Positions 14,177 through 40,648 of a stretch of 64,000 nt of DNA are shown here, in pieces. Under the pieces are notes generated by a model. The model saw only the letters and a list, made by a program, of their open reading frames with translations, was not told the origin of the DNA and made no database searches. The stretch is from Thermocrispum agreste DSM 44070 (GTDB taxonomy: Bacteria > Actinomycetota > Actinomycetes > Mycobacteriales > Pseudonocardiaceae). Position numbers and translations under genes: made by a program. Location of the stretch: assembly GCF_000427905.1 (NCBI RefSeq), contig NZ_KE386603.1, positions 367,332 through 431,331 on the forward strand. Reading direction: 5' to 3'. Positions within the stretch are counted from its first letter, which is position 1. Each line of letters starts with the position of its first letter.

Positions 14177-15004
14177 GTGTTCGCGGCACAACGACGGCAA
14201 CGCATCCTCGAGCTGGTGCGCTCCAACGGAGCGATCTCGCTGCGTGAGCTGGCCCGTGAGGTGGGCTCGTCCGACGTCACGGTGCGGCGCGACCTGAAGG
14301 CGCTCGAGGCGGAAGGCATGCTGGACCGCAGGCACGGCGGGGCGGTCGTGCCGGGCGGTCTGGCGCACGAGCAGCCGTACGCGGAGAAGGCCCTGGTCGC
14401 CGCCGACGCCAAAGCCGCCATCGCCCGGCTGGCCACCGAGCTGGTCAGCGACGGCGACGCGATCGTGGTGGGCGCCGGGACCACCACCAGGGCGTTCGCC
14501 GCCCGGCTGACCCGGTTCACCGAACTGACCGTGGTGACCAATTCGCTGCGGGTCGCGGAGAGCCTGGCCGGGGCCAACGGCGTCGACGTCGTGCTCACCG
14601 GCGGGCTGCTGCGCGGCTCGATCTTCGCCACGGTGGGCAGCACCACCGAGGAAGCGCTCGGCCGGGTGCGCGGCACCCGGGCCTTCCTGTCCGGCAACGG
14701 GCTGACCGCCGAGCGGGGGCTGTCCACGCCGAACCTGGCGGTCGCCGAGGTCGACCGGGCCATCGCGGCCGCGGCGGAGGAAGTCGTCGTGCTGGCCGAC
14801 CACACCAAGGTCGGCACCGACGCGCTGCTGCAGACCGTGGCCACGGAGAACATCACGCACCTGGTCACCGACGACAAGGCCGAGACCGGCGAGCTCGACG
14901 CGCTGCGCGAACATGGGGTCGAAGTGCACGTCGCTGCAGTGCACTCTGCCCGGAAGGGCCGTTCCGCCCGGACCGAGGACTCCGGTCGCCCCGACCGTCC
15001 TTGA
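14177..15004 (+). CDS. DeoR/GlpR-family transcriptional regulator
   Basis: 275 residues with an N-terminal DeoR helix-turn-helix (RRQRILELVRSNGAISLRELAREVG, then VTVRRDLKALEAEGMLDRRHGGA). The C-terminal sugar-phosphate sensor domain contains VGAGTTTRAFA, TVVTNSLRVAESL, DVVLTGGLLRGS and VVLADHTKVGTDAL. Such proteins are usually repressors relieved by sugar phosphates. It is immediately upstream of, and co-oriented with, a secreted GH2 glycosidase (66-bp gap), so control of glycoside use is the likely job. It starts at GTG 14177. Confidence 0.9.
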   Translation: MFAAQRRQRILELVRSNGAISLRELAREVGSSDVTVRRDLKALEAEGMLDRRHGGAVVPGGLAHEQPYAEKALVAADAKAAIARLATELVSDGDAIVVGAGTTTRAFAARLTRFTELTVVTNSLRVAESLAGANGVDVVLTGGLLRGSIFATVGSTTEEALGRVRGTRAFLSGNGLTAERGLSTPNLAVAEVDRAIAAAAEEVVVLADHTKVGTDALLQTVATENITHLVTDDKAETGELDALREHGVEVHVAAVHSARKGRSARTEDSGRPDRP

Positions 15005-15049
15005 CAGTTTTCGTTCGAACGTGACTGAATTCGACCGATTTCGATCGCA
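15001..15049 (+). promoter_or_regulatory. candidate promoter and DeoR operator before GH2 gene
   Basis: TTGACA (15001-15006) overlaps the last codons of deoR and could be a -35 box, with CTGAAT 18 bp downstream as a weak -10. CGTTCGAACG (15012-15021) is a perfect palindrome. TTCG-type half sites repeat after it (TTCGACCGA at 15030-15038, TTCGATCG at 15040-15047). Clustered TTCG repeats are typical of DeoR/GlpR binding regions; assignment to the adjacent regulator is inference. Confidence 0.5.
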
Positions 15050-15070
15050 GTGTCGCGAGGAGGTCGGGCC

Positions 15071-17566
15071 GTGGCTGGAGCAAGGAAAGTTCTCGGGGTG
15101 ATCGGCGCGGCGGTGACCGTGGCGGCGTTGGCCGTGACGCCTGCCGGGGCCGATCCTGGGTGGCAACCGAAGGACCCGCCGCTGTCCACGCCATGGACCG
15201 ACCAGGTCGGACCGGACAACGCGCTGCCGGAGTACCCGCGCCCCCAGCTGACGCGCAAGGACTGGCAGAACCTCAACGGCGTGTGGGAATTCGCTGCGGC
15301 CGACGACTTGTCCAAGCCGCCGACCGGCCGGACGCTCGAGGAGCGGATTCTCGTGCCGTTCCCGGTGGAGTCCGCGCTGTCCGGCATCCAGCGCAGCGAG
15401 GAGCGGATGTTCTACCGCCGCACGTTCCAGGTGCCCGCCAAGTGGCGGGTGGGCCGGGCAGGCCAGCGGCTGATGCTGAACTTCGGCGCGGTCGACTACG
15501 ACGCCACGGTGTGGGTCAACGGCAAGAAGGTCACCACCCACCGCGGTGGCTACGACCGGTTCTCGGTGGACATCACCGACGCGCTGACCACGTCCGGGCC
15601 GCAGGAGCTGATCGTCGGGGTGGAGGACCGCGCGGACGCCACGTGGCAGCCGCTCGGCAAGCAGCGCCGGGTGCCCGACCGCGGCATCTTCTACACCGGT
15701 GCGTCCGGCATCTGGCAGACGGTGTGGCTGGAGCCGGTGGCGGCCAACCACGTCACCGAGCTGGACATGACGCCGGACCTGGCCGACGAAAGCCTGCGGC
15801 TGACCGTGCACACGCCGTCGAAGGCGACCGTGGAGGCTGTCGCCTTCGACGGCAAGAAGAAGGTCGGCAAGGTGCGCGGTTCGTCCAACGAGCCGCTGCG
15901 GCTGCCGGTGCCCGACCCCAAGCTGTGGTCGCCGGACTCGCCGTTCCTGTACGACCTGAAGATCCGGGTGCTGGACGGCAAGCGCACGGTCGACGAGGTC
16001 GGCTCCTACTTCGGCATGCGGGAGATCGGAACCAAGCGCGGCGCCGACGGCAAGCTGCGCATGACGCTCAACGGCAAGATCCTGTTCCACCTGGCCACGC
16101 TGGACCAGGGCTACTGGCCGGACGGCATCTACACCGCGCCGACCGACGAGGCGCTGGCGTTCGACCTGGTGCAGCACAAGAAGCTCGGCTTCAACACGGT
16201 GCGCAAGCACATCAAGGTCGAACCGGACCGCTGGTTCTACCACGCCGACCGGCTCGGCCTGCTGGTATGGCAGGACATGCCGTCGATGAAGGACACCGAC
16301 CAGCTCCCGCCGCCCGAGGCGCGCGCGGAGTTCGAACGCCAGCTGCACCGGATCATCGACCAGCACGACGCGTGGACCTCGGTGGTCGTGTGGGTGCCGT
16401 TCAACGAGGGCTGGGGTGAATGGGACCGGGCCGAGACCGGGCGGATCGCCGACGAGGTCGCCGCACAGGACCCGAGCAGGCTGGTCGACGCGCACAGCGG
16501 GGTGAACTGCTGCCGGTCGAAGGGCGACTCCGGGCGGGGCCACATCATCGACCACCACGCCTATGTCGGCCCGGCCAGGGTGGCCCCGGAGGCGAACCGG
16601 GTGGCCGTCGACGGCGAGCACGGCGGCTTCGGGCTCGAGGTGGAAGGCCACATGTGGTTCGGCGAAGGGCACGCCTACGAGATGACGCCGGACTCGGCCA
16701 CGCTCACCCGGCGCTACGTGGAGAACCAGCGCGACGTGCTCGCCGCGGCGCAGCAGTGCGGCATCTCCGGTGCTGTGTACACGCAGATCACCGACGTCGA
16801 ACACGAGGTGAACGGCTTCTTCACCTACGACCGTCAGGTGGAGAAGATGGACTTCGCGCAGGTGCGCGCGGTCAACAAGGAGATCATCGACGGCGCGGAC
16901 GGTACCGGCGACCCCGGCCAGCAGCCGGGGCCGGGCACGCCCGGCCTGACCGGCATCCACTACTACCCGTTCAGCGAGGGCTCGGGCACGACCACGGCCG
17001 ACCGCGCGGGCGGTGACGACCCGGCGGACGCCACGCTGGTGGGCAGCCCGACGTGGACCACCGGCAAGGAAGGCAGCGGCCTGCAGTTCGACGGCGCCTC
17101 GTACGTGGACACCGGCCGGGCGCTGCTGAACACTGCGGGCAACTACTCGGTGTCGGCCTGGGTGAAGCTGGACAGCCTGGACGGCTTCCAGACCGCGGTC
17201 AGCCAGGACGGCGAGCGGGACAGCGCCTTCTTCCTGCAGTACTCCGGGGAGGACCGCCGGTTCGCGTTCAGTTTCGTCGGGGTGCGCGCGCTGGCCGGGG
17301 AGCAGCCGGAGGCCGGGCGCTGGTACCACCTGGTCGGCGTCCGTGACACCGTCTCGGACGAGTTGAAGCTGTACGTCGACGGCCAACTGGTCGGCACCGC
17401 GACCTCGTGCGCCGACATCGACGCCAAGGGCAACACGGTGATCGGCCGGGCGAAGTTCGGCGGCAACCAGGTCGACCACTGGCGTGGCGCGATCGACGAG
17501 GTGCGGGTCTTCGACCGCGCGCTGTCCGGCAGCGAAGTGGCCGAGTTGTTCCGGACCGGACGCTGA
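15071..17566 (+). CDS. secreted GH2 glycoside hydrolase with C-terminal LamG domain
   Basis: 831 residues. Signal peptide at residues 1-27 (GARKVLGVIGAAVTVAALAVTPAGA). The GH2 sugar-binding jelly roll (about 45-215), Ig-like domain (about 220-310) and TIM barrel follow. The acid/base is probably E446 in VWVPFNEGWGEWD, and the nucleophile is probably E516 in VDGEHGGFG. From about residue 630 a LamG/concanavalin-like domain (YPFSEGSGTTTADRAG ... IDEVRVFDRALSG) should bind polysaccharide. GH2 enzymes are beta-galactosidases, -mannosidases or -glucuronidases; the exact substrate is not decided. GTG 15071 follows GAGGAGGTCGGGCC. It is probably controlled by the preceding DeoR gene. Confidence 0.88.
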   Translation: MAGARKVLGVIGAAVTVAALAVTPAGADPGWQPKDPPLSTPWTDQVGPDNALPEYPRPQLTRKDWQNLNGVWEFAAADDLSKPPTGRTLEERILVPFPVESALSGIQRSEERMFYRRTFQVPAKWRVGRAGQRLMLNFGAVDYDATVWVNGKKVTTHRGGYDRFSVDITDALTTSGPQELIVGVEDRADATWQPLGKQRRVPDRGIFYTGASGIWQTVWLEPVAANHVTELDMTPDLADESLRLTVHTPSKATVEAVAFDGKKKVGKVRGSSNEPLRLPVPDPKLWSPDSPFLYDLKIRVLDGKRTVDEVGSYFGMREIGTKRGADGKLRMTLNGKILFHLATLDQGYWPDGIYTAPTDEALAFDLVQHKKLGFNTVRKHIKVEPDRWFYHADRLGLLVWQDMPSMKDTDQLPPPEARAEFERQLHRIIDQHDAWTSVVVWVPFNEGWGEWDRAETGRIADEVAAQDPSRLVDAHSGVNCCRSKGDSGRGHIIDHHAYVGPARVAPEANRVAVDGEHGGFGLEVEGHMWFGEGHAYEMTPDSATLTRRYVENQRDVLAAAQQCGISGAVYTQITDVEHEVNGFFTYDRQVEKMDFAQVRAVNKEIIDGADGTGDPGQQPGPGTPGLTGIHYYPFSEGSGTTTADRAGGDDPADATLVGSPTWTTGKEGSGLQFDGASYVDTGRALLNTAGNYSVSAWVKLDSLDGFQTAVSQDGERDSAFFLQYSGEDRRFAFSFVGVRALAGEQPEAGRWYHLVGVRDTVSDELKLYVDGQLVGTATSCADIDAKGNTVIGRAKFGGNQVDHWRGAIDEVRVFDRALSGSEVAELFRTGR

Positions 17567-35831: not shown

Positions 35832-36578
35832 TCAGCCGCTGATCACCTGGTTGATCCAGCCGAGGTAAGGCGCGACGTGGGTGTAGGAGGTAGCCGTCTG
35901 CCGGTCGCTGGTGGAAGCCACGCCTACCTGCACGTTCCCGGCGAACATCGGCCCACCGGAATCGCCACCGGCCGGGATGCCGTCACCGCGCCGCGCGCAC
36001 ACTGCCTCGCCGCCTCGGTAGTCGGTGCAGCCGTTGCCGACCCGGGTCACGGTCACGTCTGCCACCTTGAGCAGCTGCGACTGGCATTCGATCTCCGGCC
36101 GGTCGGTGCACGTGGCGCCCCACCCGTAGACCCGCACGGTGTCGCCTGGGTGCACCGAACCCGGGCCGCCGAGCACGGCGTACTCGGTGTCGACCGGCCG
36201 GTCGATCTTCACCAGCGCCAGGTCGGCGGTCGGGTGCTGGTGGATGCCGCCGGGCACTTGGGCGGCTTCGATGCCCTTGGTCTGGTCGACGTCACCGATG
36301 CGGAAGGTCAGGTTCCCGCCGGTCACGCAGTGCTGTGCGGTGAGGATCCAGGTGGGCGCGATGATCGTGGCCGAGCAGTTCTCCCGGCCGTTGGTGAACA
36401 ACCGCGCGGCCCACGGACCGCTCTCGGCCGTGCCGCCGTCGATGATCGTCGGTGCCGGTCCGTCGCCGGCCTGCTGCGCCTGCGCGGCAGGGGCGACGGT
36501 CAGCGCGGCGACCGCTCCGGCGGCGGTCACGGTCGCGGCGACGGTGCTGAACAGGGCTGATCTGCGTCGATACAGCAT
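35832..36578 (-). CDS. secreted trypsin-like serine protease (S1A)
   Basis: 248 residues. Signal peptide (RRRSALFSTVAATVTAAGAVAAL...AQA) and a short propeptide lead to the mature-type start TIIDGGTAESGPWAARLF. Catalytic His is in WILTAQHCVTGG, Asp in HPTADLALVKIDRP and Ser in GIPAGGDSGGPMFAG. Six cysteines fit three disulfides. Exported chymotrypsin-fold peptidase. Start ATG 36578 follows CGAGGGACCC; an ATG at 36602 is also in frame. Confidence 0.92.
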   Translation of the reverse strand: MLYRRRSALFSTVAATVTAAGAVAALTVAPAAQAQQAGDGPAPTIIDGGTAESGPWAARLFTNGRENCSATIIAPTWILTAQHCVTGGNLTFRIGDVDQTKGIEAAQVPGGIHQHPTADLALVKIDRPVDTEYAVLGGPGSVHPGDTVRVYGWGATCTDRPEIECQSQLLKVADVTVTRVGNGCTDYRGGEAVCARRGDGIPAGGDSGGPMFAGNVQVGVASTSDRQTATSYTHVAPYLGWINQVISG

Positions 36579-36734
36579 GGGTCCCTCGCTTGTGTCGTGC
36601 ATCGGTTTCTTCAGCAGGGGTGGAAACCGCTGACGCGGGGGCACGCTAGGGGCCGCATCACCACGCGGGAATCCGTCGATCGTCGTGTCCGGTTGCCACT
36701 CGACCGGCCGCCGTGGTGATCACCCGGTAGGGGT

Positions 36735-36748
36735 TGACAACGTTGTCA
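36735..36748 (+). promoter_or_regulatory. LacI-type operator in GH92 promoter
   Basis: TGACAACGTTGTCA is a perfect 14-bp palindrome with the central CG of LacI-family operators. It overlaps TTGACA (36734-36739), a consensus -35 box, so binding would block RNA polymerase. It lies 49 bp before the GH92 ATG. No LacI-family gene is in the window. Confidence 0.75.
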
Positions 36749-36796
36749 TACTGAGCACCGAACACTGCGGTACTTCTCGTCGGGGAGGACAACGCG

Positions 36797-39700
36797 ATGG
36801 TGCGTCCGCGTGGTTGGTTCCGTTCTTCCTCGGCTCGGCTGACGGCGGTGGCCACCGGTGTGGTGGTGGCGGGGGCGCTGATCGTCCCGCTCGCATCGAC
36901 CGCGACCGCCGAGCCGGCCGGCAACACCGAGTTCTTCTCCTCGTTCGAACCGGGCGATCCGCGCCCCACGTGGACCGACACCGTCGAGACCGGACCGTCC
37001 GGCAAGCCCAAGACGGGCGGCGTCACCTCGGCCGACCCCACCAGGATCGCCGGTGACATCTCCGACCAGATCGTCGAGGTCACCGCCAACGGCGAGAACA
37101 CCGGCGCAGGCGAGGTGGCGGAGAACCTGGTCGACTTCGACCCGGGCAGCAAGTGGCTGGTGTTCGAGCCGACCGGCTGGGCGCAGTTCCGCTTCGACCA
37201 GCCGGTCACGATCACCCGCTACGCGCTGACCTCGGCCAACGACCACCCCGAGCGTGATCCGCGGGACTGGACGCTGCTCGGCTCGGTCGACGGCGAGGAC
37301 TGGGCCGAGATCGACAGCAGGCAGGGTGAGAGCTTCTCCGACCGGTTCCAGACCAAGGAGTACGCCGTCGACACCGGCACCGCCTACCGCTACTACCGGC
37401 TGGACATCACCCGCAACGGCAGCGGCGACATCGTGCAGCTGGCCGAGGTGCAGTTCGCCGGCAAGGACGCCAAGCCGAGCAAGCCGCACATGGGAACGGC
37501 GGTCGGCAACGGCCCGACCAGCGCGCCTGCGGCCAAGACCAAAGTCGGTTTCACCGGCACGCATGCGCTGCGCTTCGTCGGCTCCCACTCCGGCAAAGGC
37601 CGCGCCTACTCCTACAACAAGGTCTTCGACGTCGACGTCAAGGTGACACCGAAGACAACGTTGTCATACGTGATCTTCCCCGAGCTGCTGGGCGACCTGA
37701 CCTACCCGAGCACCTACGTCGCGGTGGACCTGGCGTTCACCGACGGGACATACCTGTCGGACCTTTCGGCCAAGGATCGCCGCGGCGTGCCGGTGCACCC
37801 GCGGCGCCAGGGCGAGGCCAAGACGCTCTACGCCGACCAGTGGAACAACATCGTGGCCGACATCGGCAAGGTCGCCGCGGGCAAGACCGTGGACCGCATC
37901 CTCGTCGGCTACGACAACCCGGCCGCCGGCGACGGCGGGTTCCGCGGCTGGATCGACGACATCCGGCTGACCGCCAAGCAGCCGGAGAAGCGCTACGACA
38001 GCGTGGCCGACTACGTCATCACCACCAGGGGGACGCACTCCAGTGGCGCGTTCTCCCGCGGCAACAACTTCCCCGCGACAGCGGTGCCGCACGGCTTCAA
38101 CTTCTGGTCCCCGATGACCGACGCGGGCTCGATCTCGTGGCTGTACAGCTACCACGCGCACAACAACGCCGAGAACAAGCCGGACATCGAGGCGTTCACG
38201 GTCAGCCACGAGCCGAGCCCGTGGATGGGTGACCGGCAGACGTTCCAGGTGATGCCGTCGCCCGCGGAGGGCACGCCGGACGCCGACCGGAAGAAGCGGG
38301 CGCTGGCGTTCAGCCACGACGACGAGGTGGCCAAAGCGCACTACTACCGGGTGAAGTTCGACAACGGCATCGTCACCGAGTTCGCGCCGACCGATCACGC
38401 GGCGATCTTCCGGTTCCGGTTCCCGGGCGCGGCGAACCTGATCTTCGACAACGTCAACAACGACGGCGGCCTGACCCTGGACCCGGAGAACCGGACCGTC
38501 ACCGGCTACTCCGACGTCAAGAGCGGACTGTCGGAGGGTGCGGGCCGGATGTTCGTCTACGCGACGTTCGACAAGCCGGTGACCGACAGCGGCATGCTGC
38601 CCGGCGGTGGCGGCAAGGACGTGACCGGGTTCTTCAAGTTCGGCGACGCCGACACGGTCACCATGCGCATCGCCACGTCACTGATCAGCGTCGAGCAGGC
38701 GCGCAAGAACCTGGAGCTGGAGATCGCGCCGTCCGACACGCTGGAGACGGTGCGGGACCGGGCCAAGCGGGCCTGGGAGGAGAAGCTGGAGGTCGTCGAG
38801 GTCGAAGGCGCGACCGAGGACCAGCTGATCACCCTGTACTCCAACCTGTACCGGCTGTTCCTGTACCCGAACTCCGGGTTCGAGAACGTCGGGACCAAGG
38901 ACAAGCCGAAATACGCCTACGCCAGTCCGTTCGTGCCCAAGGAGGGCAACGACACCCCGACCCACACCGGCTCGAAGATCGTCGACGGCAAGGTGTACGT
39001 GAACAACGGCTTCTGGGACACCTACCGGACGACGTGGCCGGCGTATGCGTTGCTCACCCCGAAGCAGGCCGGGGAGATGATCGACGGATTCGTCCAGCAG
39101 TACCGGGACGGCGGGTGGATCGCGCGCTGGTCGTCACCGGGCTACGCGAACCTGATGACCGGCACCAGCTCCGACGTGGCGTTCGCCGACGCCTACACCA
39201 AGGGCATCGAGAACTTCGACGTCAAGGGCGCCTACGAGGCGGGCATGCGCAACGCCACCGTCACTCCGCCCAACGACAACGTGGGGCGGAAGGGCCTGCG
39301 CAAGTCGATCTTCCGCGGCTACACGCCGACCTCGATCCACGAGGGCATGTCGTGGGCCCTGGAGGGCTACCTCAACGACTTCGGGCTGGCCAACATGGCG
39401 CAGCTGCTGGCCGACCGGGCGAAGGACCCGGCGGAGAAGAAGAGGTACGCCGAGGAAGCCGAGTACCTGCGCAACCGGGCGCTGAACTACGTGCACATGT
39501 TCGACGAGCGGGTCGGCTTCTTCCAGGGCAGGGACGACGACGGCAACTGGCGGCTGTCCCCGGACGAGTACGACCCGCGGGTGTGGGGCTACGACTACAC
39601 CGAGACCAACGGCTGGAACATGGCCTTCACCGTGCCGCACGACGGCCAGGGGCTGGCCAACCTCTACGGCGGGCGGGACAAGCTGGCCAAGAAGCTGGAC

Positions 39701-40648
39701 GAGTTCTTCGCCACCCCGGAGACGGCGAAGTTCACCGGCTCCTACGGCGGCGTCATCCACGAGATGGTGGAAGCCCGTGACGTGCGGATGGGGCAGTACG
39801 GCCACTCGAACCAGCCGTCGCACCACATCCCGTACATGTACAACTACGCCGGTGAGCCGGCCAAGACGCAGAAGCTGGTCCGAGAGATCACCTCGCGGCT
39901 GTACTTGGGCAGCGAGATCGGCCAGGGCTATCCGGGCGACGAGGACAACGGTGAGCACTCGGCGTGGTGGGTGTTCAGCGCGCTGGGCTTCTACCCGCTG
40001 CAGATGGGCAGCCCGAACTACGCGATCGGCTCGCCGCTGTTCACCAAGGCCACGGTGCACCTGGAGAACGGCAAGAAGCTGGTGATCAAGGCGCGGAACA
40101 ACAGCCCGCAGAACGTCTACGTGCAGGACCTGAAGGTCGACGGCAAGCCGTACCACAAGACCTATCTGCCGCACTCGCTGCTGGCCGACGGTGCCGTGCT
40201 GGAGTTCACCATGGGGCCGAAGCCGTCGAAGTGGGGCACCGGCGCCGCGGCCCTGCCGCCGTCGCTGACCAAGGGCAGCAAGGTACCGCAGCCACTGGCC
40301 GACGTGCTGCCGAACTCGTCGGCGGCGACCGACGACGACTCGAACACCGAGGCGGCCGTCACCGAGGTGACCTTCGAGGCGAAGAGGCCGGGCGAGCTGG
40401 TCGAGTTCTACACGATCACGTCGGGCAAGTCGGCCGGCAGCGACCCGGGCAGGTGGGTGCTGCGCGGCTCGCGCGACGGCAAGAAGTGGACGGTGCTCGA
40501 CCAGCGCTCCGACGAGACGTTCACTTGGCGGCAGCAGACCAGGCCGTTCAAGGTCGCCAAGCCGGGCAAGTACACCTACTACCGGCTGGAGTTCGTCGGC
40601 GACGCGCGTGTGGCCGAGGTCGAACTGCTCGCCAAGCCTGGACGGTAG
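36797..40648 (+). CDS. secreted GH92 alpha-mannosidase with two discoidin-like domains
   Basis: 1283 residues. Signal peptide to about residue 39 (ATGVVVAGALIVPLASTATA). An F5/8 type C domain spans about 75-225 (LVDFDPGSKWLVFEPTGWAQ ... VQLAEVQFAG). The GH92 catalytic region runs from about 410 (RGNNFPATAVPHGFNFWSPM) to about 1110, with GTSSDVAFADAY, QPSHHIPYMYNYAGEPAKTQ and GYPGDEDNGEHSAWWVFSAL carrying the calcium and acid/base residues of the family. A second F5/8-like domain closes the protein. GH92 enzymes are calcium-dependent exo-alpha-mannosidases acting on yeast mannan or N-glycans. ATG follows GTCGGGGAGGACAACGCG. A LacI-type operator precedes the gene, and a second copy lies within codons 287-291. 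Confidence 0.94.
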   Translation: MVRPRGWFRSSSARLTAVATGVVVAGALIVPLASTATAEPAGNTEFFSSFEPGDPRPTWTDTVETGPSGKPKTGGVTSADPTRIAGDISDQIVEVTANGENTGAGEVAENLVDFDPGSKWLVFEPTGWAQFRFDQPVTITRYALTSANDHPERDPRDWTLLGSVDGEDWAEIDSRQGESFSDRFQTKEYAVDTGTAYRYYRLDITRNGSGDIVQLAEVQFAGKDAKPSKPHMGTAVGNGPTSAPAAKTKVGFTGTHALRFVGSHSGKGRAYSYNKVFDVDVKVTPKTTLSYVIFPELLGDLTYPSTYVAVDLAFTDGTYLSDLSAKDRRGVPVHPRRQGEAKTLYADQWNNIVADIGKVAAGKTVDRILVGYDNPAAGDGGFRGWIDDIRLTAKQPEKRYDSVADYVITTRGTHSSGAFSRGNNFPATAVPHGFNFWSPMTDAGSISWLYSYHAHNNAENKPDIEAFTVSHEPSPWMGDRQTFQVMPSPAEGTPDADRKKRALAFSHDDEVAKAHYYRVKFDNGIVTEFAPTDHAAIFRFRFPGAANLIFDNVNNDGGLTLDPENRTVTGYSDVKSGLSEGAGRMFVYATFDKPVTDSGMLPGGGGKDVTGFFKFGDADTVTMRIATSLISVEQARKNLELEIAPSDTLETVRDRAKRAWEEKLEVVEVEGATEDQLITLYSNLYRLFLYPNSGFENVGTKDKPKYAYASPFVPKEGNDTPTHTGSKIVDGKVYVNNGFWDTYRTTWPAYALLTPKQAGEMIDGFVQQYRDGGWIARWSSPGYANLMTGTSSDVAFADAYTKGIENFDVKGAYEAGMRNATVTPPNDNVGRKGLRKSIFRGYTPTSIHEGMSWALEGYLNDFGLANMAQLLADRAKDPAEKKRYAEEAEYLRNRALNYVHMFDERVGFFQGRDDDGNWRLSPDEYDPRVWGYDYTETNGWNMAFTVPHDGQGLANLYGGRDKLAKKLDEFFATPETAKFTGSYGGVIHEMVEARDVRMGQYGHSNQPSHHIPYMYNYAGEPAKTQKLVREITSRLYLGSEIGQGYPGDEDNGEHSAWWVFSALGFYPLQMGSPNYAIGSPLFTKATVHLENGKKLVIKARNNSPQNVYVQDLKVDGKPYHKTYLPHSLLADGAVLEFTMGPKPSKWGTGAAALPPSLTKGSKVPQPLADVLPNSSAATDDDSNTEAAVTEVTFEAKRPGELVEFYTITSGKSAGSDPGRWVLRGSRDGKKWTVLDQRSDETFTWRQQTRPFKVAKPGKYTYYRLEFVGDARVAEVELLAKPGR
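37654..37669 (+). promoter_or_regulatory. intragenic second copy of the GH92 operator
   Basis: GACAACGTTGTCATAC, inside the GH92 reading frame, is identical over 16 bases to 36736-36751 in the promoter; the 12-bp palindrome GACAACGTTGTC is intact. It encodes Lys-Thr-Thr-Leu-Ser-Tyr as AAG ACA ACG TTG TCA TAC. ACA, TTG and TCA are codons this gene otherwise avoids. The centres are 917 bp apart, a distance suited to looping. Confidence 0.65.

Follow-up and report, generated by a model that had tools for sequence, protein, structure and literature searches.

A candidate intragenic LacI-family operator, possibly an elongation roadblock, in a GH92 glycosidase gene of Thermocrispum agreste

The stretch of DNA analyzed here, henceforth the window, spans 64,000 nucleotides of the genome of Thermocrispum agreste DSM 44070 and encodes a large exported protein of the GH92 family. 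Comparisons with Pfam profiles detected in this protein an F5/8 type C domain (residues 95-218), a GH92N domain (406-628) and a GH92 catalytic domain (634-1141), and its N-terminus is signal-like by eye. The features central to the analysis are:

36797..40648, plus strand: gene for the exported GH92 family protein, a predicted exo-alpha-mannosidase (1283 aa, Pfam)
36735..36748, no strand assigned: promoter operator O1, TGACAACGTTGTCA, a perfect 14-bp palindrome
37653..37666, no strand assigned: intragenic operator O2, AGACAACGTTGTCA, in GH92 codons 286-290
37654..37669, plus strand: 16 bases matching the promoter copy, GACAACGTTGTCATAC

O1 ends 48 bp before the GH92 start codon and overlaps a TTGACA hexamer (36734-36739) that by eye resembles a -35 element. 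A trypsin-like gene (Pfam; 35832-36644, minus strand) is divergent from GH92, and O1 might for this reason act on it too. O2 lies 918 bp from O1 and 856 bp inside the GH92 coding sequence, i.e. within the transcribed region and past the promoter, and its 12-bp core GACAACGTTGTC (37654-37665) is that of O1. The original prediction, which had placed the palindrome, its recurrence 918 bp downstream and the 16 identical bases, was exact to the base in all these respects. Read in frame, O2 covers Lys286 and then ACA ACG TTG TCA TAC, encoding Thr287, Thr288, Leu289, Ser290 and Tyr291, and these codons lie in the interval that separates the F5/8C domain from the GH92 N domain. We compared this segment with 148 other GH92 loci, of which 68 come from the same taxonomic family outside the genus and 80 from a wider actinobacterial set (at least 11 of the 80 repeat family rows). 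Tyr291 is a tyrosine in all 148 (TAC in 140, TAT in 8), and the match of its TAC to the promoter flank is therefore probably coincidental. On the same ground we rejected a templated copying of the promoter that extended past the palindrome. Likewise, derivation of O2 as a relic of an ancestral promoter, brought inside the gene by fusion of an N-terminal domain, was rejected because the O2 region is colinear in the 68 family orthologues and the 80 other loci.

At both O1 and O2 the core GACAACGTTGTC is a perfect even palindrome with a central CG, which is the form given for LacI-family operators in PMC4052901. Together with its context, and with the same site at the promoter of a LacI-family gene (see below), this form bears out the earlier designation of the palindrome as a LacI-type operator. 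The further claim that the internal copy is written in rare codons holds for three codons out of four: in the GH92 gene of the window ACA, TTG and TCA make up 4.0%, 3.9% and 3.9% of the codons for their residues, respectively, but ACG, with 27.7% of the threonine codons, is not rare.

A run of rare codons might spell an operator by chance and be functionless, and the frequency of the palindrome bears directly on this alternative. In the 4.19 Mb genome GACAACGTTGTC occurs 3 times, namely in the GH92 promoter, within the GH92 coding sequence and ahead of a LacI-family gene, against 1 copy of a reversed-pattern control and 0.13-0.56 copies expected per 4.19 Mb under Markov models of order 2-5, which were trained on 202 kb of the same genome with the operator sites included. 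Each of the three exact copies is found at GH92, either ahead of the gene or in it, or else ahead of a lacI gene. Allowing up to 2 mismatches to the 14-mer, 12 places were recovered genome-wide against 2 for the reversed control; the other sites with 1-2 mismatches, three of which were viewed with their neighborhoods, are mostly inside reading frames or before genes without a clear link. One of the sites outside GH92, on contig C8 (L019:8846-8859, G000), reads TGACAACGATGTCA, which is the most frequent form of the GH92 operator in the family; it is located 92 bp ahead of a short trypsin-like frame that seems truncated and is followed by a longer trypsin-like frame (both by eye). A scan of the whole window at 3 mismatches was unremarkable: it gave 4 matches where 1.28 were expected, a result reached by 7 of 100 shuffles. 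When the synonymous codons of the gene were shuffled (20,000 shuffles for each gene), the exact 12-mer appeared in 0.03% of cases, i.e. 3 per 10,000, for the GH92 gene of the window and in 0.025% for that of its sister species, while sites within one mismatch of TGACAWCGWTGTCA arose in 0 and 1 of 10,000, respectively; these and the other statistical tests of the analysis were done after the site had been spotted. The rarity of the palindrome in such shuffles speaks against a fortuitous origin.

It had been expected that a genome scan for the palindrome would lead to the gene of a cognate LacI protein, and the third of the exact 12-mers, on contig C12, is indeed upstream of a LacI-family gene. 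The promoter of this gene (L016:9070-9163, G000) carries two sites, AGACAACGTTGTCA and TGACAACGTTGCCG, 80 bp apart, of which the second has 2 mismatches; both are kept in the sister species at the same spacing, and a further site with up to 2 mismatches is found upstream of lacI in 23 of 42 family orthologues. Autoregulation is common among LacI-family genes. The genes after the C12 lacI encode a solute-binding protein (Pfam SBP_bac_1) and then, by eye, permease-like frames. Four LacI-family genes were found in the genome, and the other three have no site with up to 2 mismatches nearby, a verdict that rests on the genome-wide list of such sites; in the sister genome, too, sites occur only at the C12 lacI orthologue among the LacI genes found. 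Orthologues of the C12 lacI are present in all 44 genomes tried, which belong to one taxonomic family, and every one of them has the exact 12-mer upstream. These 44 are the best matches, with 13 lower-scoring paralogues left out; among the 7 of these paralogues that were viewed, six are without the site and one has a 2-mismatch site. The C12 LacI-family gene is hence likely to encode the regulator of GH92.

In seven relatives, sites of the forms TGACAACGTTGTC and TGACAWCGATGTCA are few; a site precedes lacI in all seven and GH92 genes beyond the orthologue in six of them. In this survey 20 of 41 loci were viewed (many of the loci represent both strands of one site), and of ten proteins encoded next to sites, which were picked by eye for a glycosidase look, Pfam assigned 9 to GH92 and 1 to GH97; several other sites were without a clear target. 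The GH97 case (L253, G171:C1:481731) is that of a GH92-type operator standing before a GH97 gene in one relative, which suggests that the regulon extends past GH92. Taken together, these sites look like a GH92 regulon under a single repressor. The promoter site of family GH92 genes reads TGACAACGATGTCA in 38 of 70 and TGACATCGATGTCA in 20 of 70, and the lacI promoter site in the family reads TGACAACGTTGTC plus another base. Because the GH92 and lacI site variants thus differ in their center, the assignment to one repressor is something that we infer. The ten GH92 orthologues without a promoter site come from genomes that keep the C12-type lacI and its 12-mer, so that presence or absence of lacI is uninformative on the assignment. 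It is conceivable that the GH92 sites are read by a LacI-family protein other than that of C12, given that family GH92 promoters carry TGACAWCGATGTCA and the lacI promoter TGACAACGTTGTC. However, within the genus of the window the identical 12-mer stands at both GH92 and lacI, the remaining three of the four LacI genes found have no site with up to 2 mismatches nearby, and both site variants stand ahead of GH92 genes in relatives, all of which makes a different reader improbable.

The two operator copies at GH92 differ sharply in their phyletic spread. Exact TGACAWCGWTGTCA is present upstream in 60 of 70 family GH92 orthologues, the window's own included, and in 58 of the 68 outside the genus; the 70 are the best-ranked among 149 genomes with a match out of 297 searched, G248 having been skipped for its internal stop. 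A site with no more than 1 mismatch is also found upstream in 75 of the 80 further actinobacterial GH92 loci (a match in L205, which lies past the matched end of the gene, was left out of this count). Judged by this distribution, O1 is an old site. O2, on the other hand, was found only in the two genomes examined of the window's genus, both of which read ACA ACG TTG TCA TAC, and was found in none of the remaining 148 GH92 loci (with at least 11 of these counted twice), 40 of the 70 family loci having been scanned for about the first 1.65-1.79 kb only. In L092, a locus from outside the genus, a site with 2 mismatches is present at +272, a different place in the gene. Regulation does not need O2, since no copy of it was found in the 148 other GH92 loci.

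Alignment of residues 287-291 shows what the palindrome replaced. In the family loci the segment reads T-[E/Q/R]-L-S-Y in 68 of 68, with the first T replaced by S in 4; in the wider set residue 288 is more varied, 64 of 80 loci having E, R or Q. Codon 287 is ACC or ACG in 64 of 68 family and 75 of 80 wider loci, and codon 289 is CTG or CTC in 65 of 68 and 75 of 80, respectively. By comparison, among the 148 loci ACA does not occur at codon 287, nor threonine at residue 288, and TTG at codon 289 and TCA at codon 290 are seen in 5 and 3 of them. The arrangement that had been named beforehand as counting against selection at the DNA level, i.e. a promoter site that is kept beside ordinary internal codons, is therefore what is seen outside the genus, but not in the sister species.

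This sister species (G001), whose GH92 protein is 84% identical to that of the window, keeps both O1 and O2. The two genes have diverged at silent positions, with 70% identity at 4-fold sites (54% expected at saturation), and codons 283-284 and 292-293, on either side of the palindrome, have changed between the two genus members. Across ten same-residue positions at which the window's gene uses ACA, TTG or TCA, the sister shares all 3 of those in the palindrome and 0 of the 7 elsewhere (exact p = 0.008). A wider control counted the 4-fold codons of the window's gene that end in A or T: of 35, with those of the palindrome among them, 11 are the same in the sister, so that single kept codons of this kind are not unusual gene-wide. 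A constraint on these codons other than that of the protein is thus supported for the two species of the genus and does not extend to the wider family, where they are not kept. A scan of genome contigs, a set in which the genus of the window appears not to be represented, recovered no other GH92 locus above 68% identity and no third member of the genus. The absence of O2 from the 148 loci and its retention in the sister point to a recent, genus-level acquisition and not to an ancestral site, and O2 most likely originated in the line of this genus and was retained after the divergence of its two species; the strength of this argument is bounded, as it concerns a single event, observed in two members of one genus.

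These comparisons also bear on two explanations in which the palindrome plays no regulatory role. A chance origin would be in keeping with the confinement of O2 to one lineage among all the GH92 loci compared, and with the level at which A/T-ending codons are shared gene-wide. Against it stand the low yield of synonymous shuffles, the retention of precisely the three palindrome codons and of none of the other seven, and a threonine at position 288 that is unseen in 148 loci; we consider it unlikely. Alternatively, a cluster of rare codons, three out of four being rare in both species, might slow the ribosome between the F5/8C and GH92 N domains, with the palindrome being incidental. However, ACG is a common codon, residue 288 was itself replaced, the rare codons chosen are those that spell the gene's own 12-bp operator core, and common codons prevail at these positions in the 148 other loci; hence, a translational pause appears very improbable. 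By contrast, there is a good probability that O2 has been selected and functions as a second operator for the LacI-family repressor of the GH92 regulon, a case built on its sequence, its regulon context and its conservation in two species, and one that predicts binding, repression and a roadblock action.

We propose that codons 287-290 were rewritten, specifically in this genus, into an O1-like copy with an identical 12-bp core, by way of a Glu/Gln/Arg to Thr replacement at residue 288 plus three rare codons. When the inducer is absent, repressor on O1 would stop initiation, and repressor on O2, about 0.86 kb into the gene, would halt those RNA polymerases that escape. Such a roadblock would cut further the leaky expression of a 3.9-kb gene for an exported enzyme. 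Provided that O2 is functional, we regard a roadblock as about an even prospect, looping as a clearly lesser one, and some other local-concentration effect as taking up the rest.

Looping repression, as in lac, was the mechanism originally predicted: repressor bound to both O1 and O2 would hold a 0.9-kb loop and thereby strengthen repression of the promoter. Such a loop is suggested by the identical operator core occurring twice, 918 bp apart, with both copies kept in the sister, and by the lacI promoter having its own pair of sites, 80 bp apart, in both species. The prediction fared less well when the repressor itself was considered. The tetramer helix of E. coli LacI is near residues 340-357, and the alignment of the 339-residue repressor with E. 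coli LacI stops after residue 326 of 360, with 13 residues of the query to follow; a lac-type tetramer is hence not expected. The tail of the repressor, with the final residues PIARGNGT and PIATGIGT in the two species, is by eye without a heptad repeat. The repressor is therefore probably not a tetramer, as far as its sequence indicates, though it may make dimer-dimer contacts of other kinds. Further, O1 and O2 are separated by 918 bp in the window and by 913 bp in the sister species, and this shift of 5 bp, about half a helical turn, is weak evidence against a loop, as helical phasing is of little weight at 900 bp. A roadblock requires neither tetramer nor phasing, and is favored over the loop for this reason; looping as the principal mechanism seems doubtful to us. 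According to PMC4132739, LacI itself can reduce transcription beyond its site by over 80%, and the looped form of LacI makes a stronger roadblock in vitro (PMC5477534). As a looped repressor blocks better, roadblock and looping may combine. We thus lean, if moderately, towards the account in which this genus rewrote a conserved GH92 segment into a second operator at which elongation is blocked, with or without the formation of a loop.

The arrangement has likenesses to two systems of E. coli. It resembles purB/PurR in combining a LacI-family repressor of the non-tetramerizing kind with an operator in a coding sequence; PurR acts as a dimer, and the purB site, the classic example, was called a transcriptional roadblock in the title of a 1992 paper by He and Zalkin that PMC4132739 lists among its references. 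GH92 differs from purB in having a full promoter operator as well and an internal copy 856 bp into the gene, and also in that the gene encodes an exported GH92 enzyme in an actinobacterial host. With lac O2, which lies in lacZ, it shares a second copy of the promoter operator inside the first regulated gene and a repressor of the LacI family. However, of the two lac sites O2 is the weaker, with a distance of about 400 bp from O1, and LacI is a tetramer through its C-terminal helix, whereas the GH92 copy is an exact core match at 918 bp and its repressor is without the tetramerization segment. The internal PurR site of purB is cited in PMC4052901, a survey of LacI-family regulons that places less than 1% of sites in coding regions. 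In Bacillus subtilis, repressors bound downstream of the start site, namely CcpA and CodY, stop elongation according to PMC4132739 and PMC10310618; the regulators there are different ones. Thus, intragenic operators of the LacI family are already known, if rare, and what O2 of GH92 adds is an unusually clear before-and-after: relatives represent the state before, mostly T-E-L-S-Y in common codons, and the genus the state after, T-T-L-S-Y with rare codons.

On the roadblock reading, which we hold to with the same measured preference, the relatives and the genus would show, before and after, how a regulatory DNA site came to override constraints on both protein and codons, and an amino-acid cost of O2 is probable. 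The birth of an intragenic operator becomes directly testable here, and roadblock and looping can be told apart in a system with a repressor that is probably non-tetrameric. The sites also point to a LacI regulon that comprises GH92 genes and a transporter; literature searches with the operator strings and with GH92 plus LacI, which had most subscription papers outside their scope, returned no report of such a regulon. Elsewhere in the window, positions 14177-17563 hold a gene for a DeoR-family regulator, followed by that for a large GH2-like protein with a Laminin_G_3 domain (Pfam), and this is likely to be a further sugar-use locus.
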